Source: Sanderia malayensis (Eukaryota > Cnidaria > Scyphozoa > Semaeostomeae > Pelagiidae). From it: a stretch of DNA of 64,000 bases. The first letter of the stretch is position 1, and every line of letters begins with the position of its first letter. The position numbers and the translations under genes are program-made. This document shows positions 23,226 through 41,700 of this stretch, one piece after another. The stretch spans positions 22,640 through 86,639 of the forward strand of contig RQOL01000644.1 in assembly GCA_013076295.1 (NCBI GenBank), written 5' to 3'. The notes below the pieces were generated by a model. That model had not been told where the DNA came from, did not search any database, and was given only the letters and a program-made list of their open reading frames with translations.

Positions 23226-23303
23226 ATAGATGATATGCATATTGACGTCACAGAACTCATTCTTTTCGGACTGAGTGGTAAAATGAGTGGCAAAATGGCG
23301 GCC
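23226..23303 (+). repeat. Left terminal inverted repeat of the KDZ element
   Basis: Outer block 23226-23253, spacer 23254-23270, inner block 23271-23303. The outer block contains ttgacgtcac, a perfect cAMP-response-element palindrome (TGACGTCA), and atatgcat. The inner block contains the in-frame start ATGAGTGGCAAAATGGCGG of the SWIM-finger gene. Confidence 0.88.
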
Positions 23304-23932
23304 GCGAAAAAGGCGCCGAAGGAGAACGCCCCTTTTGGAGCTTGTCACTCGCCTTCTGTACATTACTCTGGTCTCACCTATGAGCTAAAATTAGTTTACG
23401 ACCAGAAGTTGCAATTTTTACAGATATCAGACCCATATTTATTGAATAAGTCTGATTTTGATACTCCTCTGGAGCAGTGGCCTAAATTTTCTTACGCAGC
23501 CGTTTACAATTATCTGGTTACTTCAAAAAGCAATTTTACCCATTCAAGTTTGAAAGCTTATAAAAGTATGAATGCATATCCGTATGTTGTCACTTGCCAA
23601 ACCTATGAGGAAATTTGTAAGCGAATCCAGCCCCCCTTGTATCTTTTTTTTGCCAAAGTACGATACTCGCAGTATTTTCACAAAAATTGCCTAATCAAGC
23701 TTGGGTCGTCGTTAATGATGATGGATCTGTATGTAGGGGACATTATACTTGTTTTGTCAGACAAGGGGAAGTCTGCTCTCATGTTGGGGCAATTTTTTTT
23801 CATATTAATAGTGTTTCTGAGTTCAGAGAAAAGTCTACATCTTCTTGTACTTCAGAACTTTGTTCTTTGTTGGGTAACAACTCAACCAACCCCACTAGAT
23901 ATATATATATATATATATACACAAACTCTGTT
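23283..23932 (+). pseudogene. SWIM zinc-finger protein, frameshifted
   Basis: The ATG at 23283 lies inside the left inverted repeat. The product begins basic (KMAAAKKAPKEN) and continues with phrases such as WPKFSYAAVYNYL and SLKAYKSMNAYPY, seen in invertebrate proteins that carry a SWIM finger and often a YqaJ-type nuclease. At about 23685, beside a run of five A, the frame must change by one base. It then reads NQAWVVVNDDGSV and the SWIM finger CRGHYTCFVRQGEVCSHVGA. Soon after it runs into a (TA)n microsatellite and is lost. No nuclease domain follows. It is probably an accessory gene of the transposon that has died. Confidence 0.65.
23899..23922. repeat. (TA)n microsatellite
   Basis: About eleven TA units lie directly downstream of the SWIM finger and mark the end of the recognisable coding sequence. 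Confidence 0.9.
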
Positions 23933-24562
23933 TGACAACACAAGGGGTTACACATTGGTCTATTGGGTAGCTTTGAAAAAAGCTGTTTAAAGGGTGACAA
24001 ATTCAGTGCTGCTGTTTCATTCCAGAGGAACAACAGACTCACAGAGGTTGCAAAGAGCTGAACATACAACCAAGATATCATCAAGAATGCTATCTTCTTC
24101 TGTAGTTTTGCTCATCAGCAACTTGATGGGGATGATGCTCTGCAACATTGTAAATTTATTTCAAAGCAGTCCAATTACTCTTTCCATATGGATTTGCACG
24201 TGGAATATTGCATTTATTAATCGTGAAAATTTAGAAAGCCATCCCAAGTGTATAATATTTGAAAATTTTGATTTCGGCCAAAATAAATTTGAGTCACATA
24301 GTATGGCAGCAAGGCATTGTTAAGTTTTTAACAGGAGTTTTGCATTTATGGAACTCAACAAAATTCAAAGCAAAAAACAAGAGCGAATAAAACATTCAAA
24401 ACATTCAAGTGCCTGAGATAGATAAAAATAATGATTTTTAATATATTGGCATTTCATGCTATCATTTGCAAGCATGGGTCTCTTGGAGCGAGAGGTCCAA
24501 AAGACACCCATGCTTTGGAAATTTGGTCCTCAGTTCAGTGTAGATTTGTGCATTAGATAATG

Positions 24563-24919
24563 TTAATCAATGATCACAGCACACTTTGAAAAATGCTCCC
24601 TGGATGCTGTAGGCAGAGTCTTGTGAAGAACTTCCCTTTCAGGCCAAAGAATACGGGCAGATAGACATTTTGACAAAACAACAATCCACTTGTAGAAAAT
24701 TTTGCAAACACTACTTTGTTGAATTCCAAAATGATAAGCCAAGTATTGCTCTGATAAATCAAGATGTAACCGGATTATTGCAAGAAGAAGTTCTTGAAAA
24801 TTAGAGAGCTTTCTGTTGTGATGGGAATGCATGTAAGGTTCGACGAAACCAAGAATTTTCATAAGGAGCTTATTATTGTCATGTTCCAGAGTACATTGCT
24901 CAAAAGATAACAATGCCAA
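24563..24919 (-). pseudogene. DDE_Tnp_4-type (Harbinger/IS5-like) transposase fragment
   Basis: The frame encodes about 118 residues. A helix-turn-helix region (LDLSEQYLAYHFGIQQSSVC) is followed by KIFYKWIVVLS, WPEREVLHKTLP and the first catalytic aspartate region (FSKCAVIID), where it stops. This is the layout of PIF/Harbinger-like transposases with an HTH_Tnp_4 domain. The remaining DDE core is absent. It is a truncated foreign insertion inside the KDZ element, between the dead SWIM gene and the transposase promoter. Confidence 0.7.
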
Positions 24920-25410
24920 ATCAGTCCTCAGTTGGAAAACCTCCTGACCTCAATTATACAATATGTTGTCTTCCTTTAAGTTCTGACTATGTTCTCACTT
25001 TTCTGACCTAAACATTAAGGAGACATATGTATCTATTTAGTTATAAACGTGTAAAACAGATAATTATAATCTCACATCCCAATCAGAGCAATCCGCAGGG
25101 AAAAAATGGTGAATAAATACAAATATGTTATGGCCTACCTGAGACAAAGTGAATTCCGCAAACCCAAGCATGGTCAATATTGCTATCTGGGTTTATTTTG
25201 GCAATAAAAATTCATCTTTCCCTCCGTTCAGGGTCTTTGCGAATTCGATGAAATTTGACCTCATTCTTAAACCCATTTTTCATGCAACCAAGAACAGAAC
25301 AAGACTCAACCATTTTGAAAAAATATCGATTTAAAATCAAAATTTGTTTTGCGCGCCCTTTTTTGTTCATCACCAGCCTCTCTTGTCAATGACAGAGATT
25401 TGGAGGCATA

Positions 25411-25443
25411 AAATGTTCCTGAATTTGGTACTTCTTCAACCAA
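25411..25443 (+). promoter_or_regulatory. Upstream inverted motif of the transposase gene
   Basis: These 33 bases are the exact complement of 37449-37481. This copy lies about 100 bp before the transposase ATG. The other lies about 195 bp before the ATG of the OTU gene on the opposite strand. Placing the same oriented motif ahead of both genes suggests a shared promoter element or a transposase-binding subterminal repeat. Confidence 0.5.
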
Positions 25444-25544
25444 CACACTTTATCACGTGTTCATTCATATCCCCAAATGAGGCCATTTGTATATGGCGGC
25501 GGCATTGCATGAATTGCCTGACCCACTTGTGATGTTGTGATGTG

Positions 25545-28500
25545 ATGGCAGAAGAAAATACAACGAACAGAGAAATAGTTGGAAGGCCCGAGCTTGGGTT
25601 AGGGAGAGAAAACATCCGCCAACATTTTCAATTGTGTTCGTCCTCTTTTAACAGACCAGATAATGTGTTTGGTCCAAATGAAGGCCTGCCTGCTTATACA
25701 ATTTTCCCAAGGAGGCCTAAATTGTCAGGGCGAAAGAGACCAAAAGGCCGCCCGAAAAAGAAAGTAATTAACCCTGACCCACTGAATAATATGGAATTGA
25801 CCGAGGATGATGATGTTGGTGATGGTGGTGGTGATGAGGACGATGGTATTGGCTTTTATGTGCCACAGCAAAACTCTGTACCAGGTAAGGTATATGGGCG
25901 GCGTTCACTGTTTAACGAATATAGGATATCTTACCCTGTGTGTTAAGTGAGATTATTTAAATTTTTTATTTTATTTTAGATAATAGATCTACGGCTATTG
26001 GAAGCGAAATGCAAATTGGTCAAGAAGGAGTGACAGTGACACCAAATCAAGGTGGACAGGTATTAGGATGTTTATGGTTTGCATATATGCTATTGCAATG
26101 TATGCTTGTTGTATTGTCAGCTTGTTCTCGCATGGAATGTGTGGAAATTGCAATATTGCAAAAAATGGCAGAGTAGCTTAGAATGATGAGTACTAAAACA
26201 AAGAGACCAGGTACCCCCAAGTTTGTGGCAAAGAGTTCTTAACTTAGAAATGGGGCTTCCCCAGACTAGAAAGTATGTACTGCATGTAGAAGATTTTGCA
26301 CATACAAACAAACTGCCAGGTGCAAAACTGCCAATCAAGTGCGCAAAATTGAAAATTGTACTTGTCAAACACTACCACCATCAAACACTACCACCTTAGT
26401 AGAGGTGCTGCTATGGCGGTAGTGTGTCAAGTTTGATGAGAAAAACTATCTTCCGCATGCAGAAATCAAACTTTCTGGTATAGGGGCTCCCTTTACTTGA
26501 ACCATCATGACAATACTCTACATATTTTTCATATTATAGGGCATGTCTGTTGTTGAGCAGTCATATCTTTTTCAAGTTTTGAAAGCAAAATCAGTGATGC
26601 AAATATGCGGAAATACTGATTACCTCATTCAAGATTTTGATACTGAAAGGCAGATGTTGAAGGTAATATTTTTCAGCCTTTGTTGTCATGCTATTGTTTA
26701 TTATCTTTTGGAAATTTAATAGAATGTAATTTTTTATATTTTTGAAATATTTTTAGCTTCAGAGGTACTGTATTGTGTCAAGGGTTCCCATTAAGTGTTA
26801 CAATAATCTGCAATGGGTGTATTACTGTTCTTGCCATGAAGGGCGTTCTGACTTTGTTAGAAATTTAAACAGAGAAATTAATCATGGTGCACAAGGTAAG
26901 TTAAAATATATCAATTGGTTTTATTGCACATTACTTTAATATGAGCCAGTTTAGTTAATACTAGACACCTGTTTCAGTGACAATGTCTACCAGCACTTGG
27001 TGTAACAGCAACACACATTTCTAGAATTAGAAATGAGATTGTGGGTTCAAATCCCACAGTGCTGTTTGTCATTGACATGGTCATCTACCATTTCATACCA
27101 ACTATGTCAAGATAAGGCAATAGAAAAGTCTTGCTCTGGTTTGAAACATTGGTTGTAACTTTTGTGAAACTTTTGTAAACCCCTTTTTCATACAGAGCTT
27201 AAGGAGATGCTTAAAGAAAAATTTGCTGACTGCATTCATATAAAGATATGCTTTGAAGTGTTCAGTGTTTGGGAAATATTCAATGGAGTAACAATGCCAG
27301 CAATAAATGAAGGTATGTAAAAATGTTTATGTACATCATGTACAAATACATTTTATGCCACTTTAAACATGTGATGTTTAAATACTTGGCTGTGCTTCAT
27401 AATAACACAATTTTCAAATAATTTTGATGTAATTATAAATTTTGTAACAACACTTCTCTATTACTTTTCAAATTTCAATTGTTTTATAGAGATATACACA
27501 GACCACTGGTATCATCAGGTAGTGGCAAAAATAACCATATTCCTAAAGTACAATAAATTATTGAGCGATATCTGAGCTTGCAAACCACTTTTCTTTTATC
27601 CACTTCATGTCTGGTACTTTATTGGCCCTTTTTACACTGCCCAAATTATGTGAATCCTAACATATATTCTGTAATTTGTTATCAAATTTCTTAATAAAAA
27701 GAAATTAATTATTGATTCATATTGTTCGCACTTCTGAGCTCTGTTCCCCAAAGTTGATTGTCTTGCTGCTTTCTACATTTTCTTTAATTTTGTTTTTGTC
27801 CTTCTCCCTTTTTTCTATCCTCTCAGTTTTTGGTATTCAAAATCAAGTCATCTCTGTCATCTTTTAAACTTGCCCATGGAAAAAAGTTCTCATTTTTATA
27901 TTGATATTTTCATGCGTGTTGTTTTCAAGTGTATGCACCTGGTCGGGTTTTCACATAAAATCCCTATAAAGTATAAAAATATGTTATGTGTAACAAAAAC
28001 CAACGCCATTTAGGGCCAGTGTAAAAGGGCCGATTGGGTAAGAAGTTACCTCTCTTTGGCCATACTTTATTCACTGTAACCATGAACGGTTTTTTTGACA
28101 GGGTTTGTCTACATTTGTTCAGCTACCATTGTCTGGAAAGTCGATGGTCATTGTAAAGCCACCACTTGATTCATTTGGAATTGTTGGTGCTGATAGAAGG
28201 GGTTTCAGATGTTTTACTTGCACGTCTACTCGATATTCTTGCAATCATATATCTTGCGTAAAGTCGACTCTTGCAAGAAATGGAACAGACACGGATATAC
28301 CTGATTGTTTGCTTGATATGGTTCAACAACATGAATATCTTCGAAATTCAGCACCAAAGATATACTCTCGCCCGGCAGTTTCAACAATGAAAATTCCATT
28401 CTCTGTTCAGCACTCTCAGAGAAGTTTGTTTACTGGGTTTTTAAATGGTATTGTTGACACTGTTGAAGATCGTTTTATAATAATAGATGACTTTGCATCA

Positions 28501-31442
28501 TCTATGTGCAGCATTTGCAAGGCGGATTTATCGACTGAAATTCAATGGATAAATAACAGGAAGTTTTACACTCAAAAGTATATATTTGATGTTTCGGGTG
28601 AGTGTTTTTGGCCCGTCGTTTCTAAAGTAACAGAAAAAGTGAATTGACGTTGGGGATAGGGCATTGGAACGATATATGTTATCCTTTTAATAATGTATTT
28701 TCATTTTTAGTACCGTTCAAAGTTTGCAGTAATGTAGCGTGTAGAGAAGTTGTAAAGTATGATGGGTGCAGCAAGGGAGTTTTAAACATGGGAGATTTTC
28801 TTGTTGGTCATGATGTTCTACGAAATTATATGCACAATTTCATAACTGGAAATAGGTATGTTGATTAACAATGTTAATGTTCGATTATGTACGCTTTTGA
28901 AGCTCTTGAGGCACGCATTTTGATATTGGGAAAGCTGGGCGAGTACGGGGGTCCGGGGGCGCGACTCCGGGGACTTTTTTTACGTTTTTATTGCTAGAAA
29001 ACGCACCAGTTATGCAATGGTTAATTGACAAACAAATGATGATATTTTGATATCTGTTTAAGAATATTATAAATGAAGGCTTTAGAAAATAAATATTTGC
29101 AAATTATTGGGGGAGCTGGTGCTTAATACTATTATAACTTTTAGCCAAAGTTTAGTCAGTTATCTTGAAGTCTGGAACAAGAATCTTATGGACTCTGGGT
29201 TCAATTGTGAGCACTTTCTTGGCTACACCCAGTGGAGAATGAGCTGGTATGCGTTCCTTGGTTTACTTGACCTAGATGTTGATACTGGTTTTTTGTGCAA
29301 CAACTGCGGCCAATACCCACAACGGATCTTTTGTGATGCAACATCTTTAGGGTTTCGACGCATTTACGTCAACCAGTTAGAAGTTCAGGAACAAGCAGAA
29401 GACTCCATCACATTGCGTGGAAGATAAGTAGCATAGTATTGCATACCATATTTCCTCTAACTAGCATCCACCATCCTTAATCGCCCCCTCCAATAAGCGC
29501 CCACCTTAAAATAAAAAAGTATGAAGTAAGCGCCCCCTCTATTAACCACCCAAGGCGGTTAATAGAATTCTTACATTTTCACTGTTTGGTTCAAATAATA
29601 ACGTAGAAACTCCAGGCTTGAAAGACACTTGAGCGTGAGCGTTTGGAAATGCAATGGAGTCAAAATCAGCAGTTGAAGTTGATCTTGACTGCTTGAAATT
29701 GAATAACATTAGAAACTATATAAGATTATTCTTTTGTTTTTGAGGTTGTTTGATTTGAAAATTTCAGGACTGTGAAATAAGCGCTCCTTTAATAAACAGC
29801 CATCCAATATTTGCAACATATTTAATTAGCGCCGGGGCGCTTATTATGCCCACTCAAATGCTCTTATGATTCAATTGTAAGCGTTAGGTAACGCCCCCTT
29901 CTAAGTTTTTCGTTACGCGGGAATGAATTTTGAATTCTAAGTTGAAATTGTAAATAACGCACTAAGCGTCTTAATGCAATATAGTAATTTTATTTATTAT
30001 TATTTTTGCACTGGGTTTAGAGATAGAGTATTCATCTCTAATGAAGATACAAGGACGGCACTGAAAAAGTTTGTGAAGTCACGCGGTGAAACAGACCAAG
30101 TGGAACGCCATAGGCTGAATGAGAAACTTCGTGAACACAACTCATGCTTACTTGATGTTATTACAAAGCTGGAGCAACAATATGGTGGAATAAAGAACAT
30201 TCCTGAAACTATCTGGGTTCTCTTCAAGTGTTTATCGTCAAACTCGCCAGTTTGCTCTTATTTCCCTGTTTCCACAATACTCAGTGAAATATTAAATGAG
30301 TTAAATAGAGGCGTAGTTGTGAGAAGCGAGCCGAAACACTTGATTGAAATACAGAATTGCGCTCCTATCATTTATGGAGTTTTAAAAAAACTACCATCGG
30401 AGCCTTTGAGTATGAGCTGGTTAGAGCTGTTTAGAAACATGAAAGAAAAGGCAGAGGCGTGCTTTTCTGTACCTCAACACAATCTGGGACCACCAGTTGA
30501 ACAAGCAAATGGCATGAATATGTCATTTTTTCCTGCATGGCCGGTTTTATGCGAGCGAGGAAAATATTTCAAGGACAAAAGCAAACAAAGAGGCAGAGAG
30601 AATTGCAATAAAGATTACACCGGTCATCCAAACCTATACCCCGGAATATTTACAATGTATTGCGAGCATGGTAATATTGTACTATAATTTTATTCCATGC
30701 AATATTCATAAAGGTCAGGGAGTTGTTAGAAAGATAACCAAAGTGTAATTTTTCCCGTAGAGATCTGCTATGGATTCCAAATTATGGATTCCCAGGAATC
30801 TGTAAATGTCCCATTTACGATTATTCGTACAAGACTCCCAATAGGTATGTACCTCACTTGATGTTTTATAATTCACAACTTAGAACTACTTCCTGAGCTT
30901 GATAATAATGGTTTGTATATTCTCTACACAGCTCCAAAGGTAATAGTCTATGATAATTGCTGCAATTTACATCAGTACTGTTTAAATCGCGATCCGTCGT
31001 ATTTCAAAGAAACACGCTTTTTGGTTGATCGCTTCCATTGGAAGAACCATGTCGGTAAGCATTACTGTTGTTATTATTATAAAAACCCGGGCATTCAAAT
31101 GGCTTAAGTGCCTATTGAGAACATTTTGCTCAAATTAAATTGCATTCTCAATTACATACATACCTCATGGAAGCGTCATATCCATTACAAGAAGAGAAGT
31201 ATAAATAAATTCACGAATTCTCACGAATGAAAAGTGTTTTGTAATACCTTTTAGGATGTGCACCAAGCTATGACATTTCAATGTATCACGAATATGAAAG
31301 CTTCAATACAGAAGTGAACGAGCAGCAAAATGCAACATTCAAGGCTCTTCGCAAACAATTATCGTACATGACTCCAGTAAATTTTAAGGCACATTGCATC
31401 CTGTTTATGTTGAATCGCAACAAGAAAAAGTTTTCTCGATAA
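25545..31442 (+). CDS. KDZ-superfamily transposase, 13 exons
   Basis: Inferred exons: 25545-25884, 25980-26059, 26540-26662, 26757-26895, 27196-27312, 27490-27518 (29 nt), 28102-28597, 28711-28855, 29145-29423, 30021-30670, 30761-30844, 30932-31054, 31255-31442. They sum to 2793 nt in unbroken frame (930 residues). The start is the first ATG of the open frame. The N-terminus is basic then acidic (GRKRPKGRPKKK, then a D/E run). A SWIM-like finger (CFTCTSTRYSCNH) lies near residue 315. A CxC5/CxC6-like cluster (VCSNVACREVVKYDGC, VLNMGDFLVGH) lies at 442-490. The RNase H-like core has a first acidic residue in FCDATSLGF (about 554), a second in VIVYDNCCNL (about 835), then RFHWKNHVG and an acidic NTEVNEQQN (about 888). 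These match the order of KDZ transposases and the related HMGXB3-type proteins. Every boundary is GT-AG except the exon 9 donor, which reads AAG|ATAAGT. It is convergent with the OTU gene. Confidence 0.85.
26991..27064 (+). repeat. tRNA-like repeat in a transposase intron
   Basis: This 74-nt cloverleaf-like sequence has a perfect 7-bp acceptor stem (cagcact with agtgctg), a GTGT/ACAC D stem, an atttct/agaaat anticodon-arm hairpin and a perfect T arm gtgggttcaaatcccac. The anticodon loop is one base short and there is no usual U33, so it is not a normal tRNA. It lies in intron 4 in the sense direction. Homology to the copy at 35360-35433 extends about 15 bases beyond each end. Confidence 0.7.
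29443..29870. mobile_element. gcgccccc-family MITE in transposase intron 9
   Basis: It starts taccatatttcctcta and is full of cgccccctc and aataagcgccc words, like the better preserved copy at 33053-33447. The right end is degraded. It lies just after the mutated exon 9 donor. Confidence 0.5.
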
Positions 31443-31986
31443 CATAACAATATATATTTAATTGACGCTATGCCTGGCTGAAAAACAATAAAACATGTTG
31501 TGTTATACAAATTCTGTTAATCGCTTTCAATTCTTGTGAACAATAATAATTATGGAAATAAAGGAAAAACAAAAGACTCAGCGAACCAAGCACAATTATT
31601 TTAAACGAATAATAATGACTTGCCATGATTTTTATTATACTTATGCAAATGCAAGCGATCAATAATTGCTGATTTGGGCTAGTGAAATTAAAAAATATTA
31701 CAAAACATGTTTCCTGAACATTTGCTTCACAATGCCAAAAATTCTTAATGGTCGCACTAGAAATCATGGGTAAGTCATTTAATACACTTTTTTTATCACA
31801 CAATATGTGTGCGTCTCATATCAAATACAATTTACTCACAACGAAGTGAGTTTCGAAATGCCATACAAACATTTGTGGGAGGGCTGGAGGACTGTAAGGA
31901 TACTATCTAAATATATGTTAATTAAATTTATGTTCGTTAGTTTATTTCGAATCTAAAGCTAAACATTTTCAAAAAAATTTTTCTCG
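31443..31986. other. Convergent intergenic region inside the transposon
   Basis: About 540 bp of AT-rich sequence separates the two stop codons. It must hold both polyadenylation sites; several aataaa-like words are present (for example aataaa at 31487). No further gene is seen. Confidence 0.4.
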
Positions 31987-34900
31987 TCAGCAATAAAGTG
32001 GGTCTTCGTTTAAGATCCTTCTCGCAAACATTAATGGGACACTATCTTCCTTATGAATGATAAATGCCACAATCTGCATATAAACAAATATTTGAAGTTA
32101 TTAACAACAATACTATGAATTTTAAAATATAACAAAGAAACGAAAAAAACGAAAAAAAACGAAAAAAAGAAATGTATATTTTTGCTCACCTCTGGTATCA
32201 ATACACACATGTGCAATGATAACCTCTGTGTTCCAGTTAGCTCTCGATATCTGCGTAGTTGTCTACTGCGCTCAACAATATATTGTTCCAGCTCTTCGTC
32301 CTGTAATAATTACAAAATTGCGTCAAAAATTCATGCAAATGCGTTTCTTCTGTGAAATTTAATCTTTTAGAAGCAATGATGTTGTCCTATATACAGAAAA
32401 AAGGTTGTTTCCATTACATCATAGCTACACCTTCCTATTATCGGTTTGTGACCCTATTTAGCATGAGCTACTTACGTCAATGCCGACCCTCTGTAGAAAA
32501 TTCAACTAGCTATGAAAAATCTAATTAGTAAAAGTAAGCCCTTATTAAAAACGTACCACATTAGTTGAATCGATTACCCATAGTTTTGAAAACTCTGCTA
32601 AGGGAGTAATTTGACCAGATTCAAACATAGGTACTCTCGGGGAGTAAGTATGGCCTTCGGCAATTTCTGAGAGGTAGTCCTGAATAAGAAAATGAAAGCA
32701 ATCAAATGCTGCGCTTTCATTATTATTGAAACAATCGTTGTGCAGTGCATGATATAAAACAAATTGTTGCCATAGTGTATTGAAACTAACCATAATGGCT
32801 TTGTCATGGATTTGCAAGCATCTTCGCAACGACAATACAGATTTAAGTGAAATCAGGCTGAAAAAAATTGAATGATACTCAAACATATTTGCCTGAAGAA
32901 ATATTATAGAAGTAACAATATTCACCCGCTTGAGCATTCCGATAAGTGGTATCAACACACGCCAGATAGTGTTGTTGAGAATGGAGTTGTGAAAATTATG
33001 TGGATATCAATGTACAGTGTCATAATGTCATCCAGGCAAGAAGATCAGAGGTTACCGTATTTCCTCGATTAAACGCCCGCCTCGATTAAAAGCCCCCCTC
33101 GAATAAGCGCCCTCTCATGGTGCTAACTTTTGAAATAAGCGCCCCCTCGATTAAACGCCCCCACACAACAATTTTTTTAAGTTGGTGTAGTGTATTGGGG
33201 AATCAAAAGCCAATTGTTTCAAATTCAGGGATTATCAGGGGACTTTTATTTCCTGCGTTGTTGCTCGATTAAGACAAGGCACAGCTAAACCATTTTATTG
33301 TTTTTTGGACACATTGACAGGGGCTATGATTTTGTACTTCCTAATAAACGCCCCCTTCGAATAATACCCCTCTCGATTAGGCGCCCCCCAAAAAGTGCCG
33401 AGATTAATAAACGCCCCAGAAATATGTTTAATCGAGGGAATACGGTATATTAATTCAAAGGGAAAAGAAAGATGCTCTAATTGTTGACATTACTGCATTG
33501 ACGTTGCTGTTTAAAGGAGAAGGAAACCTGTTAGCCTGTAACTTGCTGTGGCCGGGGGGGGCAAGGGGAGCCATGGCCCACCCTGTGAAAGCAAAATCGC
33601 TGGATTTTGGGGATATTTTGGAGGTTTCTTCCCCTTTAAGGAAACTTTTCAGCGTTTGACCCAATTTTCGGATAATTTTCGTGTTTGGCCCACCCTAAAG
33701 TTCAGGTCCCACGACGCCCCTGGCAATAGGCCACAGTGCAGAAATGCTTAAATGACGATAATGACAATGATTATTATTATTATTATGTTATTATTATTAT
33801 CAATTACTTATTATTAGTATCACATTATTATGTTATTTTTATGATAATGATAAAAACATAATAATAATCATTATCATTATTAATAACATTTTTATTATAT
33901 TCTGTTACGCTTTGGATGCCAAAGGGCCAAAATTGGGAACCTAAGTATCCTTAACATTTTCAGACTAAAATATCCAATACAATAAAGAGGTCTACAGTAA
34001 ATTCTTGGTATCGAATGGGTATTCAAAGTGTGCAATATAAACTGCATGTGAGAGTGGTTTATCCAAAATTTACTGCTTTATCGAAATTACCTTGCAAGAC
34101 AATCGGCTTTCTTATGACAATAACATTGCCAATCACGAATTCCGGGGACCGTATTTCGTGAACTCAAGCAGTAAACATGGTACTCTCTTAGACAAAGACT
34201 ACATGCAACTCTTTCTTCATTTGCTTTCTTTTCTAAAAATCGGCGATAGCATTGCTCTTGAAGAGCACAAAGATCTGAGTTTTGATTCAACTCGTCGTAA
34301 TCAACAGGCTTGATCAAAGGAATGACATGATCAACATTGCCACCAAGTGAAGAAGGTACCCAAAGAATATCTAATTGGTCGGTCGCTTCAACCAATGATA
34401 TGCTGCGAGTAAGCTCTGGATTTGAACTGAATGATCGGATGTTTAGGTTAAACGCCATTGCACACAAAACTACATGAAGAAATGCTGAAAGATCAAATGA
34501 ATTTTACTTGAAATCTGAATTATACTGCAACCTACATAAATAAAGTAGACGTTTAATTTTGAATGACGCAGATTTATTAACTTACATCCATATCGGTAAA
34601 GATCCAGACTGCATAGTATTTCATATTTCACATTGTGCGCCAACTTTTCATGGTCGTCCATGTCATTTTCTGACACATTATCTGTTGTGATCATTTGAGC
34701 GAGACTGGCATTGTTATCAAAGGCTTCTGTCAGCTTTAAATCAGATAAAATTTCAATAAGAATTATGAAAAGGTAATTCTTGAAAAGGTAACAAACAATT
34801 TTCCTGGTCTCTTTAGATTTTGTTATATCAAACTTTCACTGTAATATGGTTTTAGGTTAGACCATAAATATTGTCTCCATATACTCTCACTGAGTCTCTT

Positions 34901-37253
34901 TAAAATGTACATAAACAAACGAGTTTATTCATCTTTCCGTGGATTTTCAAATTCAAAACTTATTATTTTTAGAGTCTGGTCCTACCAGCATCGGCCCAAA
35001 TTACCTGACTGTCCAGTCCACTCCTAGAATTGTAGATTTCCATAAATACACATTTCTATACCTACCTTTTGCATTACTTTATCCTCTTGGCTAACCCCAT
35101 AAACAAGAGCCATCAGCTTCACAAATGCCCACTGTTTTTCATCACCAAATAAGAAGAGTGCAATAGAGCGATACAAACAAGTACCATCCCCTTTCACAAA
35201 AATTGGCTCTTTCCCAATCAGCAAAATTTCGTTGGGTACTAAATGACGATACCTTACAATAAGAATAAAAGTACAATAAAGTAATGCAAATATAATGTAT
35301 AAAAATATAGGTATTTATATATGTAACATGTGATGGTGGGTAAGCAAGTCAATGACAAACAGCACTGTGGGATTTGAACCCACAATCTCATTTCTAATTC
35401 TAGAAATGTGTGTTGCTGTTACACCAAGTGCTGGTAGGCATTGTCACTGATAACAAACCACATCAGAACCAATTTACCACACAAAAGAAAATTGAAAACA
35501 AGCTATTAACACCAATACTTGAAGACACAGGCTAAGATAAATAAACTAAGATAACTAACCAATGTTGGATTTGTTTGCTTCTGATGTTGTTATCTCTGGG
35601 AGGCACTTGTGAAGAAGGTAAACTAGCCAGCAAATTCTTCAGCTCAGAAAATGTAGGACAGCCAGCTAATTGAAGCATAAGCGACTTACAATCAGCAGGA
35701 TTCCATGTAAAATTCTGTAATAAAAAATAATTAGACCTCATGCAGTAAGAAATTCAATATTTGGTTTGATTAACTGAAAAAATGTATTTATGAACTTGCA
35801 AATAAGCAAGTAAGCCAACCTGAAAACAGGGCATATCAGTCAGCAATACAGGTTGTCTTGAAACAAAACCTTGCTGGCTATTACTTTGTTCACTATCTTG
35901 TACTGAGTCAACAGTTGTGTGAACTTCTGCACCCCTTACTTCTTCAACTTCTCCAACAACAACATCTTCAGTGAGTCCTTGCTCCTCTACTTCTGATTCT
36001 TGAGTGTGTTCTCGCATCTCATATTCCAACACACTTTGGTGGCCAGCAAAATACTCCTGTGCACTCTCTAGAATTTTGTCTAATATTTCAACACAAAAGC
36101 GTGGACAACTATTTGGGGAGGCAAAATGTATATCTGCTGGCCACCAAACTGGTCTATGATCACTCTGCCATTTATTGTGTTTCATGATATCTTAAAAACA
36201 AATACATAGGTTAAACCATCTATAAACATTAATTAGAAAATTCCATATGCTACAAAAAAGTTAGCATGCTACAAAAACAAATGTTATACCATTGCCCAAT
36301 ACAAGCTTGCAAATCAATGATCTTTTATCATCAATATGAAAGCTCTGAGCATCCTCCATTAATGATTTTATAACAATTTGATCAACTCCTAAAAACACAC
36401 ACATAAATATATCAGCCATAAATACATTATGCTGGGAACATATTCATCTAAACTTTAAATTCCTATACATACTTGTTGTTGATGGTACTGCATCATCTGA
36501 CGATATTTGAGTTGGCATATTCATGCACTTTAGTGCCACTTGCTTAAACTGCTGCATCACTACAGGATGCTCAGCAAATTCAGCAAAGCAAGGATCACCT
36601 AGATGCACATTTCAATTGTAAAGTTAAAGATGTAAAGATTATGTTATTCAGTTTGCTATTTAGCATTAATAACAAATCAGCTACAAAACTGCCAGAAAAC
36701 TTTGTCCTGAGTTTGGTCAAACTATACAAGTGATTGCTTTGCCTCAAAATAATTCAAAACAAATAATGAAATTACCCATGTATTTAATCTGCAGATTGCC
36801 ACTCTTGTCTTTGCATAATGCCAAAGCAACTGCTGGCATTTCTGTTTTTATCTTCCATTCTTTCATCTGCAATATAACAACAAAAATAAAAATAAAATAA
36901 AAATAGTTAGTATTCTCCCGATATTACAGCAAATCAACAAACGGTTGTAAATTTATGACCATTTTATCGAGGCGTGAAATCATCCGAGCATCAGTGCGTG
37001 TTCGTTCTCTTTTTTCTTTTAAATAACTCTTTTTAGCAGAGCCGCGAAACTTCTATAAAAAAAAAAGAAAACTGAAAACCGTGATTTAAAAAGCGTAATT
37101 CTCATTCGTTATTTTATTTATATTAACATAACGCTTTTTGTTGGGAAAATAGAAAGACATAATATATACCGTTGTTGCTGATTGTCCCAACTGTTGCTCT
37201 CCTCCGGTTGCTTCACCCGATGCTAGAGGCTGAAAATCGCTTTGGGATTCCAT
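31987..37253 (-). CDS. OTU-domain cysteine protease with PHD-like cluster, 14 exons
   Basis: Inferred exons on the minus strand: 37253-37170, 37052-36960, 36866-36776, 36598-36473, 36388-36290, 36190-35820, 35714-35560, 35252-35066, 34733-34586, 34469-34091, 32857-32791, 32679-32557, 32300-32190, 32049-31987. They total 2097 nt in one frame (698 residues). The OTU signature is VKGDGTCLYRSIALFLFGDE near residue 360 (catalytic Asp and Cys). A later DHVIPLI supplies the expected His at about 499. Residues 541-569 form a PHD-like half finger (CSLC, EYHVYC, WQCYC). OTU enzymes cleave ubiquitin or ubiquitin-like chains. As transposon cargo it may protect transposase or act on host chromatin. A shorter form could end at a TAA (34089-34087) if the exon 10 donor is skipped. 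The exon 2 donor ATG|GTCATA is weak. No matching host gene is evident. Confidence 0.8.
33053..33447. mobile_element. gcgccccc-family MITE, well preserved
   Basis: Inverted ends taccgtatttcctcgattaa and its complement enclose about 395 bp rich in aaacgcccc words. It sits in the long intron between exons 10 and 11 of the OTU gene. The family recurs at 29443, 46203 and 55829. Confidence 0.75.
33757..33900. repeat. AT-rich trinucleotide inverted repeat
   Basis: attattattatt runs followed by ataataataatc runs could fold into a long hairpin. This is a decayed microsatellite in the same OTU-gene intron. Confidence 0.7.
35360..35433 (-). repeat. tRNA-like repeat in an OTU-gene intron
   Basis: The complement is almost identical to 26991-27064, with the same acceptor, D and T stems. 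It lies in the intron between exons 7 and 8 and again points in the sense direction of its gene. Flanking bases (tcagtgacaatg and tttgtcattgac on the minus strand) are shared with the first copy. Confidence 0.7.
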
Positions 37254-37448
37254 TACATAAAACACAAACGTATGTATGAAATGTATAAAAACCTAAACGT
37301 AACAGAATATTCCAGATTGAAAGTTGAAATTGAAACTGTAAATACAGAAAGGATGAATTGTTTTGCAGCGCAGAGTGGCCTAAGAACGGTAGCCATTAAT
37401 GTCCAGCCTCCTCTTCACGCACAAAGGTTTTGTATTGGTATTGTTCTC

Positions 37449-37481
37449 TTGGTTGAAGAAGTACCAAATTCAGGAACATTT
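37449..37481 (-). promoter_or_regulatory. Upstream inverted motif of the OTU gene
   Basis: Exact complement of 25411-25443, oriented towards the OTU gene in the same way that the other copy faces the transposase. Core: ggttgaagaagtaccaaat. Confidence 0.5.
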
Positions 37482-37720
37482 CATTCCTGGAGATTTGTGT
37501 ACTTCGGCCTAACTTTTTTTTAAAAAGCCGCGAGCCTTGGCCGAAAGGCTGTTTTTGCTTTAAATTTTTTATAAGAAAGAAAGCCCATCAGATAGAAATC
37601 TGATTTCATTACAGAAAACTACTATTTTGACGTCAAGTGTCAAATTTTTTTTGCAAATCTGACTTGGCATCCTTGTCTATTATGTAATTTTTGAAGGGGC
37701 CTATTTAGAGGCTACTTTGT

Positions 37721-37797
37721 GGCCGCCATCTTACCACTCATTTTACCACTCAGCATGGCGGCGAATGGACTGTGACGTCAATATGCATATCATCTAT
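37721..37797 (-). repeat. Right terminal inverted repeat of the KDZ element
   Basis: Inner block 37721-37753, spacer 37754-37769, outer block 37770-37797. It is the complement of the left repeat and includes the same TGACGTCA palindrome. Read on the minus strand it also has an ATG-AGT-GGT start, but this frame stops after nine codons. Confidence 0.88.
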
Positions 37798-38794: not shown

Positions 38795-41700
38795 TCAATC
38801 ATCTTTATGAATTTTTTTGAAAGCAGCACATACGCCACCGGGAATGTCGCCGCCATCTTGTTTTTTCGACCCCAATCCTCTCTTCGTGTTATTTGGATCT
38901 TCATTGCCAAGTGCCTGGTTCTTTTGCTGTATCGCTTGCAGCAACTCATCGTGCAACGGTTTTCGGCAGTCGAACAGCTTTACCAATCTTCTGACGTCAC
39001 TGTCCGTCAAACTACCTTGAGATCCGATTTTCCTTCCAGTGCCTCCATATTCGGGTTTTGCTTCCATTGTAATTTTTTTCTTACCATCTGCCCCAGCAAT
39101 GGCAAAATACGTTGCTCCATAGTGCATTATGCTGTTGAAATCGTATTGTTCAGCAAATGTCTCCACAAGATCTCTCGTGTATGTTGCAAAGTTCTTCATC
39201 TTTCCTAAAGTTAATGATTTGATGTAAAAATTGAATTTACGTGGTTTTACAATAGCTAACTGTTTTCAAGTATCGTTACTGCTATAGCTCCATTTTTGAG
39301 CCTTTTGGCTTAATTTTAATCTTCCAGTAGTGTCTTATTGATACTAATAAAAATAACAAATGATTTTTCATCATACCAATGATAACATTTTGTGCGTTTA
39401 TTGTAATATATTCATCTCGGTCCGGCCTTTCTTGTTCATGAACGAAGCCAAACGCGTGCATTGTTTCATGCAAAACTGTTGACACCATTGAAAATCGGCC
39501 TAAATTTATTTCTTGGAAGTACTTTCGCTGTCCATTATGCAATTGTAGGTACACCGGGTTGTTTATGTTTTCATCCTGCTTGCCAACATAAGATTGGGAG
39601 CTGAAAATAAACAAATGATGCAGTTTATGGAGGTGAATGAGAAACAAGTGTCTTAACACACAATTGACAACTAAATTGCCATTTTGGTAACCCTGAAATG
39701 GAGTAAGTGTATTCTTGAAATATCCTTTTACCCAGCAGCTTTTTTGTATCGGATGTGAAATGTTTGGCTGTTTGCGTCCACTTCGTTGAATTCGATACAG
39801 GTGTACATTTCAAATACCTTATGGGCTTTCTTTATCACATCTTTCAGTCCATCTGTGAAACAAACGTGACCACATTGTATATAATGCTAACGTTAATCAA
39901 GAATCTGTGGCAATAGCGTAGATAGGTAATTTTATACAGGGGGCGATAAATTCAGATTTTCCGACAAAAATTTAATAGGCATTTTGTTCTTCAAGACCAT
40001 GAGTATAAGATAAGGAAATTAGCTAGAACTGAACGTAAGCAGAGGATATTTATTTTCCGACAAGATCAGCAATTTTCCGACAAAACGGCAGTTTAGCTCT
40101 ACCGGGGGGTTTTTCACCCCCTCTGACCCCCCTCTGTCTACCCCACTGATCTGTGGTTTTCAATCAACCATAAATTGCATAAAAAATAAAGTTTTAATTT
40201 CCAGTACTGAGCATGTAGGAACTTTCTAAAAATGTTTCAGTAGTGTGCTGTGAAAATCTTTCCAAAAAAACCGTGCTTGTTAAATATGCACACATCAGAT
40301 GATCAGAAGTCAAATGACATGGTGAAGTATTTCTTCTCTTTGGCTGATTGACTACGCTATAAATGGCGTCAAGGACGTAGCGACCACTTTGATGATTCAT
40401 TTGTATGAGGTTGCAACTCCCCCACCCCCAAGAGTAAACTTGGGGGAATGCCTTACCAAACTCGGATAATTCCTGAACGATAATTGAATCAGCTGGTAAT
40501 GAAGAATCAAGTGATATTGTGAAAAATTCTTTCCTACATAAAATTTCTGACAAAATTCCTGGCCCACTACGTTATAAATGACGCCAGGCATTTCAATAAC
40601 AAAACTGCTCAAAATGTATCATATCAGTAATGGATTGGCTTACCAGTAAGTGAGGCATCCAAGTGGAATGGAATTGTCTTTGTATTCCAACGGAAATTGT
40701 GGGAAGCTGGCAAATGTTTGATAACAGCGCGTTTTTGCTTTTCGTTTTCTTTGAACGTCTTTGCTTGTTCTTTCGTCATCAGGATATCGCCATGTTCAAG
40801 AGTACCTTTAAAAATGGAGGTCTACAGTGTCTACAGTGCGTCTAGAGTGGAGCACAATCAATACCACCATCAACAGGCCAGAAAAAGTATGCCGTATTTA
40901 CCGGAGGCAACATAAAGGCGTTTTTTTTACGAAACCATGTATGTATAGCCGTTTTCTCGTGGCAAAATGAACTGCCCGTAATAGCCAGGTGGTCGTATTA
41001 ATGAAGTGGCCGTAATGGCGAGGCGGCCATATTAATGAAGTGCAGGTGACCATAAAGCGAGATTCCACTGATTAATGATTGCGAGACTAAGCAACTGCTT
41101 TCTCAACACTTTTTTTTATGCCAATACTCTAATCTTTCCCGAATTCAGTTTTCCAGCCTTTAAAATTTATATTTGGTTCCATTGCTTGGTGGAAATGTTA
41201 GCTTTGGAACACCTGTGTGATCTTTACCCCGATTACAGGTTGGCACTGCGTAAAAGTAGACCACTCTTGTTATTATTGATCAGAAGGTTAAGCATGAAAT
41301 TGATTGTACGACAACACAGCACAATCTAAATGTAGCTCGCTCCATGAGTTCACTAAAACTTCGCTAATTGGAAATATTTTCTGTCAAAACGTTCAAGCTT
41401 CTCATTATACTTTATTTTATTTACCACTAATTATACATACATAGTCATACAGTTATTTGACTTGCGTATGGGCTTGTTCAAAGTGCCACACAGGGGCGGT
41501 CTTGCATCACAATTGCAGGGTGCTGACAAACCAAAGGGGCCCAGTTTAGGGTGGTCCAAGTCTTCGAAAAGGGCCCGTAGTTTTAGTTTACGTTAAAAAT
41601 CAGAAGGCCCGGGTGGCGATCGCCACTTTGCCACCCGGGCCAGACCGCCCATGACAGTACATATATATTATTTTGTATTTTAAGAAGGCCTGGCACGCAA

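Follow-up and report, generated by a model that had tools for sequence, protein, structure and literature searches.

The 64,000-nucleotide stretch of Sanderia malayensis DNA analysed here (the window) contains two convergent multi-exon genes with open frames, a transposase gene and a gene for a predicted OTU protease, lying between inverted repeats, and raises the question of whether these repeats are the ends of one large transposon that carries both genes. A preliminary description took them for the bipartite ends of a 14.6-kb KDZ (Kyakuja-Dileera-Zisupton) element. The repeats do exist at the expected places, as a 28-bp perfect inverted pair (23226-23253/37770-37797), inside which lies a second inverted block of 38 bp with 89% identity (23271-23308/37716-37753), and they enclose both genes. 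However, in the window's own genome the left end has at least 42 matches and the right end at least 40, in each case at no fewer than 40 loci including the window, and among the 28 copies whose two ends could be paired from match tables, 22 measure 2.4-2.6 kb. When the window was compared with the loci fetched around right ends, its own right end being left out (L040-L058), all 19 sister copies were found without the insertion and without both genes: the equivalent of position 25401/25402 joins 37490-37495 at 18 loci, and 37561 at the remaining one (L041). The exact uninterrupted junction word, with a single GAGATTTG, occurs in ten of these 19 loci, including L043 and L050, and the junction word differs in the other nine. 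Since all the sister copies are uninterrupted, a 12,087-bp element lies within a 2.5-kb relic, flanked by GAGATTTG. Ends and target duplications distinct from the outer ones mark this inner element, which also occurs at other sites with other flanks. A single 14.6-kb transposon, whose outer ends would mobilise the transposase and OTU genes together, is thus ruled out by the uninterrupted sister sites, and we give it virtually no likelihood.

The outer element consists of a left part (23226..25402), beyond which copies run on uninserted, and a right part (37490..37797) carrying the inverted end 37770-37797, which joins 25402 in sister copies; neither part is assigned a strand. On its domain relics, it is an ISL2EU-like non-autonomous relic, and belongs to another transposon family than the inner element. 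On the minus strand, its left part retains HTH_Tnp_4 (Pfam, E 6.3e-13, 48.5 bits against a cut-off of 27) and a weak THAP-like piece, below threshold (14.3 bits against 23.9). The relic gave no DDE match in Pfam, the pieces that were scanned showed no recognisable YqaJ domain, and the copies that were translated (window, L012, L026 and L031) hold no long intact gene. In all 16 paired outer copies examined, AT stands at both borders, which agrees with the 2-bp AT target duplication reported for ISL2EU (PMC4482050); given that AT reads the same on either strand, such borders do not prove a duplication. With regard to the ISL2EU group of PHIS transposons, as presented in the excerpt of that source (PMC4482050), the relic is alike in its HTH_Tnp_4 transposase remnant, THAP-like fragment and AT-bounded ends, and unlike in its want of a long intact gene and of a recognised YqaJ domain. 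Nested insertions of this kind can make wrong ends pass for those of a large element.

The inner element, a DNA transposon of the KDZ lineage that comprises genes A and B (25403..37489, no strand assigned), was delimited by the sister sites and by copies at C781, C405 (two) and C675. It ends in terminal inverted repeats of 41 bp (left, 25403..25443, plus strand; right, 37449..37489, minus strand), identical at 38 of 41 positions, and is bordered by a perfect 8-bp target site duplication (left copy, 25395..25402; right copy, 37490..37497). The 27-bp core of the terminal repeat has 22 genomic matches with at most three mismatches, compared with none for a reversed-pattern control. Three copies have both inner ends intact no more than 16 kb apart, and all three are flanked by perfect 8-bp duplications of different sequences. 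At C404, a left and a right inner end lie 29 kb apart with unmatched flanks (GCAAGAAA and AGAAAATC), in a region that holds more than one transposase match and more than one OTU match. The C781 copy (15.5 kb) is about 97-99.7% identical to the window per aligned block, and the C405 5.9M copy is 99% identical over the part compared, the alignment ending 14 bp before the right end, while C675 and C405 63k have undergone internal deletions whose right breakpoint lies near 35571. Together, the near-identical and the internally deleted copies look like a family that was active recently and has left deletion derivatives. The 12.1-kb extent, the ends, the duplication, both genes and the two kinds of copies are all read directly from the DNA. 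The preliminary description had expected further copies with the same ends to carry the OTU gene as well; this failed for the outer ends and held for the inner ones, where copies contain either the OTU gene or what internal deletion has left of it, except C591, in which no gene B was found.

At C859:6078244-6100574, two inner-element copies are inverted with respect to each other, right ends outward, each sharing 99.7% identity with 1.5 kb of the window; their outer flanks show no duplication match, and the arrangement may be a palindrome, a composite or an assembly effect. Within the window's element, an inverted 123-bp pair (26974-27096/35328-35450, 93% complementary), with a tRNA-like core detected by ARAGORN in each member, is probably a pair of SINEs derived from tRNA, one in an intron of A and one in an intron of B. 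Within 33053-33447, an intron of B also holds an inverted pair of 22 bp as well as, at 33063-33112, 17-bp repeats (CCTCGATTAAACGCCCC).

Gene A (25545..31442, plus strand) codes for a 933-residue transposase in an open spliced frame of 13 exons (25545-25884, 25980-26059, 26540-26662, 26757-26895, 27196-27312, 27490-27518, 28102-28597, 28711-28855, 29145-29423, 30012-30670, 30761-30844, 30932-31054 and 31255-31442). Intron 9 (29424..30011, plus strand; ATAAGT...GCAC) is read as AT-AC, since A then aligns gaplessly at this junction with its jellyfish relative and the donor recurs, namely in C781, C405 5.9M, C591 and family 2 at C350 (L090; about 50% diverged). A mutated splice donor was considered and rejected on the same two grounds. 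Apart from its first base, the donor is like a major-spliceosome donor, with reference to the general division into U2 and U12 classes.

The affiliation of A is reached through its relatives. Up to E 1, A itself matches no Pfam model, integrase models included, its relative P0001 from the jellyfish Rhopilema has no direct Pfam match either, and the window is absent from the 111 Pfam KDZ matches of its genome. A and P0001 share 48% identity over residues 300-930 and 41% over 923 columns, and a profile built from A, P0001 and P0002 retrieved 47 relatives, of which 25 contain PF18758 (KDZ); a rescan of ten relatives gave five above the cut-off. Descent through these PF18758-bearing relatives supports A as a transposase of the KDZ lineage, at which level the assignment is made, the tree having been built without named reference sequences for Kyakuja, Dileera or Zisupton. 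The transposase class proposed in the preliminary description is thereby borne out, although A has no direct match of its own. On an RNase H-like core, A presents the DDE catalytic triad expected of KDZ members, with D554 (FCDATSLGF) in exon 9 (29145..29423), which also holds a CxxC cluster, D838 (IVYDNCC) in exon 12 (30932..31054) and E894 (TEVNEQQN) in exon 13 (31255..31442), all on the plus strand; among the relatives spanning each position, the residue is kept in 26 of 26, 43 of 47 and 44 of 46, respectively. Residues 403-515 align with the CxC4 stretches of P0010, P0012 and P0021, and two of the CxC4-like cysteines are kept in 19/19 and 20/21 relatives, while C412 and C447 are poorly kept (8 of at least 19, and 13 of 21). 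CxC5 and CxC6, the clusters first suggested, were absent by Pfam from the ten relatives scanned, in which CxC4 is found instead. Upstream, residues 313-325 form a C-x2-C...C-x-H cluster, each residue of which is kept in at least 16 of 17 relatives, with no Pfam match to SWIM.

Gene B (31987..37253, minus strand) codes for a 716-residue OTU-PHD protein, also in an open spliced frame. The present model has 15 exons (5' to 3', 37253-37170, 37052-36960, 36866-36776, 36598-36473, 36388-36290, 36190-35820, 35714-35560, 35252-35066, 34733-34586, 34484-34091, 32857-32791, 32679-32557, 32490-32476, 32300-32190 and 32073-31987), the thirteenth of which (15 nt) is doubtful owing to a gap there in P0003-P0006. 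Of the exon counts proposed earlier, 13 was right for A, with intron 9 corrected from GT-AG to AT-AC, and 14 for B was not retained. The proteins P0003-P0006 align blockwise from the start of B to near its end, without the stretch of exon 8, an exon that is backed by family 2. Their reading as OTU genes of other species was rejected, and they were counted as coming from the same or a very close species, because they give single-exon matches to family 2 in this genome with 100% identity over 52 residues (P0003) or 93% over 45 (the other three). Among the relatives of B searched, none comes from an identifiable other species.

Exon 8 of B (35066..35252, minus strand) bears the OTU catalytic-cysteine motif GDGTCLYRSIA, and exon 10 (34091..34484, minus strand) the histidine motif NVDHVIPLI together with a PHD-like zinc cluster. 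In the OTU-PHD part, the family 2 protein (C350) and B are identical at 42% of 288 aligned residues. The cysteine motif reads GDGTC in family 1 and GEGNC in family 2, the first D of DGxC being replaced by E, and the histidine motif reads NVDH and NFNH, respectively, with a His that, from its position, we take to be the OTU catalytic one. This His and most of the PHD-like cysteines are kept between the two families. As single sequences, the domains are found by Pfam only below the cut-off (OTU in B, E 0.062, 14.2 bits against 23.3; PHD, E 0.0051 in B and 0.00054 in family 2), and the window's contig has none of the 67 Pfam OTU matches of the genome. With respect to the Pfam search suggested in the preliminary description, OTU was thus recovered at sub-threshold level in B, and KDZ, with CxC4 in place of CxC5 and CxC6, through the relatives of A. 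The two-family profile (B and family 2) matches the viral OTU 6dx5 (E 7.7e-7) over 38 residues around the cysteine, OTUD5 (E 4.6e-4) over 74 residues around the cysteine, that is, over part of the OTU domain, and the PHD fingers of DPF3 and ubi-d4 (E about 0.003-0.004; DPF3, 0.0028). Foldseek returned no match with E below 1, its first row being a kinase. From these motifs and profile matches, B is predicted to be a ubiquitin-removing protease. Residues 44-189 gave a weak hit, under the cut-off (E 0.006), to the DNA-binding domain of Nrf1, and could constitute a DNA-binding N-terminus. Elsewhere in the genome, typical OTU domains occur in tandem in open frames of more than 2000 residues (for example at C686:2921698-2922471 and C675:5053795-5054655), which possibly belong to other mobile elements.

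The pairing of the two genes was followed in the window's own genome, where loci from genome searches, supplemented by wider searches and then clustered, amount to at least 88 for A and at least 42 for B. A single-copy host OTU gene, which would have spoken against a co-travelling partner, is not what is seen: the OTU gene is multicopy. Among the 42 B loci listed, an A lies no farther than 15 kb away in 30 and is lacking at this distance in 12, and the nearest A is convergent in 29 cases, divergent in one and on the same strand in none. In the divergent case (C404:115k), there is a further A, which is convergent, 4.1 kb away. The proposal that the OTU gene with its PHD-like cluster travels with the transposase gene is supported by these 29 convergent loci. 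When the main transposase loci are considered, 16 of 25 have a convergent B match within 15 kb, for a chance expectation of 0.17 loci (any B so near); the nine without B at this distance are C591 (95% identical), C771:68k (88%), C483:62k (43%), C303:2.09M (41%), two at C679 (38 and 34%), C571 and C726 (37%), and C569 (36%). Paired transposases share about 49-50% identity with A of the window at C350, C876 and C303, 43-44% at C483:142k, C415 and C453, and 41% at C850 and C788. Since the convergent pair is also found in families whose transposases are 41-50% identical to A, the partnership of A and the OTU-PHD gene looks old.

As a whole, we consider it probable that the locus represents a 12.1-kb two-gene transposon of the KDZ lineage inserted in an ISL2EU-like relic, and that its OTU-PHD protein would be a chromatin-directed deubiquitinase. 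The SWIM-like and CxC4-like zinc clusters of A would bind the 41-bp ends, and the DDE core (D554, D838 and E894) would cut the DNA and integrate the element with an 8-bp stagger. The inner element would supply B in trans, and the PHD-like finger may recruit this deubiquitinase to the nucleosomes of donor or target sites; the stripping of ubiquitin there would favour expression or transposition of the element; by analogy, B could play a part similar to that ascribed to TET/JBP enzymes in fungal KDZ elements. Concerning the substrate itself, chromatin ubiquitin is proposed tentatively, the transposase would be a rather doubtful candidate, and host factors of defence or repair, or the absence of any role, take what likelihood is left.

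The OTU-PHD protein might mainly shield the transposase from degradation by deubiquitination, its PHD-like cluster being structural only. Such a function would fit the fixed convergent layout across families, as expected of two co-adapted proteins, and OTU domains are fused to the transposase in Ginger1 elements (PMC2836005, excerpt); yet B is a separate gene, and its PHD-like cluster is kept at 42% identity over the OTU-PHD region, which points to chromatin. We therefore judge transposase protection unlikely as the main function of B.

The degree of constraint on the two genes bears on whether B was captured once and is carried as a passive passenger with no part in transposition. For A, 30 synonymous and 45 nonsynonymous differences separate the window from C591 (pN/pS 0.39, 861 codons), and for the first exons of B, 13 and 27 separate it from L079 (0.53), and 20 and 38 from L080 (0.48). 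One-sided binomial tests against neutrality gave 1e-4 for A in C591, and 0.047 and 0.008 for B in L079 and L080, respectively, the values for B being weak because they come from partial exons with no correction for transition bias; constraint on B thus appears modest. Further pN/pS values for A are 0.42 (L064), 0.27 (L065), 0.55 (L067), 0.67 (L068) and 0.39 (L069), and the comparisons too short or too similar to judge gave 0.26 (C781) and 0.61 (C405 5.9M) for A, and 0.00 (L072 and L073), 0.60 (L078) and 0.79 (L075 and C781) for B. Stops interrupt A in L064, L065, L067 and L068, and B in C781, L079 and L080. The stops in B and its pN/pS of about 0.5, a weak sign of constraint, would suit a passenger, as would the fact that 59 of the 88 A loci listed are the nearest partner of no B. 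However, the convergent pair persists in families with A only about 41-50% identical to that of the window, the OTU catalytic Cys and His and the majority of the PHD-like cysteines are conserved, and the window copy has open frames for both A and B, all of which make a mere passenger quite improbable. Finally, a domesticated host gene A with B as an unrelated neighbour, as multi-exon genes with conserved frames might suggest, is ruled out by the dispersed near-identical copies, three of them with target duplications of different sequence, and retains practically no likelihood.

Accessory genes are not foreign to the lineage. Fungal Zisupton and Dileera KDZ elements carry TET/JBP genes, and 8-bp target duplications are given for Zisupton and for Zisupton-1_PGr, which is a Dileera element (PMC12730594, excerpt). 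The element described here resembles KDZ elements, as characterised in that excerpt, in its homologous DDE transposase and CxC4-like cluster, and Zisupton and Dileera in particular in its 8-bp duplication, its inverted ends and the accessory enzyme gene beside the transposase (PMC12730594). It differs in that the accessory protein is an OTU-PHD protein rather than a dioxygenase, that the host is an animal (PMC12730594), and that A is too diverged for the Pfam KDZ model. The multi-exon Zisupton elements of Pristionchus likewise combine, in an animal, a KDZ transposase of many exons with inverted ends, but in the excerpted account no target duplications are detectable and no OTU partner is named (PMC9297572). 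In Ginger1, from Hydra and other animals, an OTU or Ulp1 protease is linked to a cut-and-paste DDE transposase, with PHD in one family given there, together with Ulp1; in contrast to the separate convergent gene and KDZ-type transposase found here, the Ginger1 transposase resembles Gypsy integrases and has the OTU as a C-terminal domain (PMC2836005, excerpt). For these OTU, Ulp1 and PHD fusions, a role of ubiquitin in transposition has been suggested (PMC2836005).

The view that the pairing was previously undescribed agrees with our literature searches, which covered neither Repbase nor subscription papers, so that a prior Repbase entry is possible: no publication coupling Zisupton or KDZ with OTU was found, and none with both Zisupton and OTU as whole words. 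KDZ combined with ovarian tumor retrieved unrelated work only, as judged by its listing, and broader searches gave no description of the pairing among the matches listed (title, counts and start of abstract). In fungi, KDZ transposons are known for their TET/JBP demethylation genes; the cargo of animal KDZ elements is little described in the literature searched. A conserved OTU-PHD partner suggests that the erasure of ubiquitin marks may be another way for a DNA transposon to handle its host. By extension, OTU-PHD might be a standing second component of an entire animal KDZ lineage, a chromatin deubiquitinase encoded by the transposon and erasing a repressive or damage ubiquitin mark for expression or insertion as the counterpart of fungal TET/JBP, a reading that we regard as improbable; if true, chromatin-mark erasers would have been recruited by KDZ transposons at least twice. 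A and B, with known ends, offer a defined two-protein system for asking whether transposition needs the deubiquitinase.

With regard to the surroundings of the nested elements, positions 1-773 of the window hold 4.7 tandem copies of a 165-bp unit (91% matches), and a putative minus-strand gene for an astacin-like HExxH metalloprotease, recognised by eye at about 38800-41000, adjoins them.
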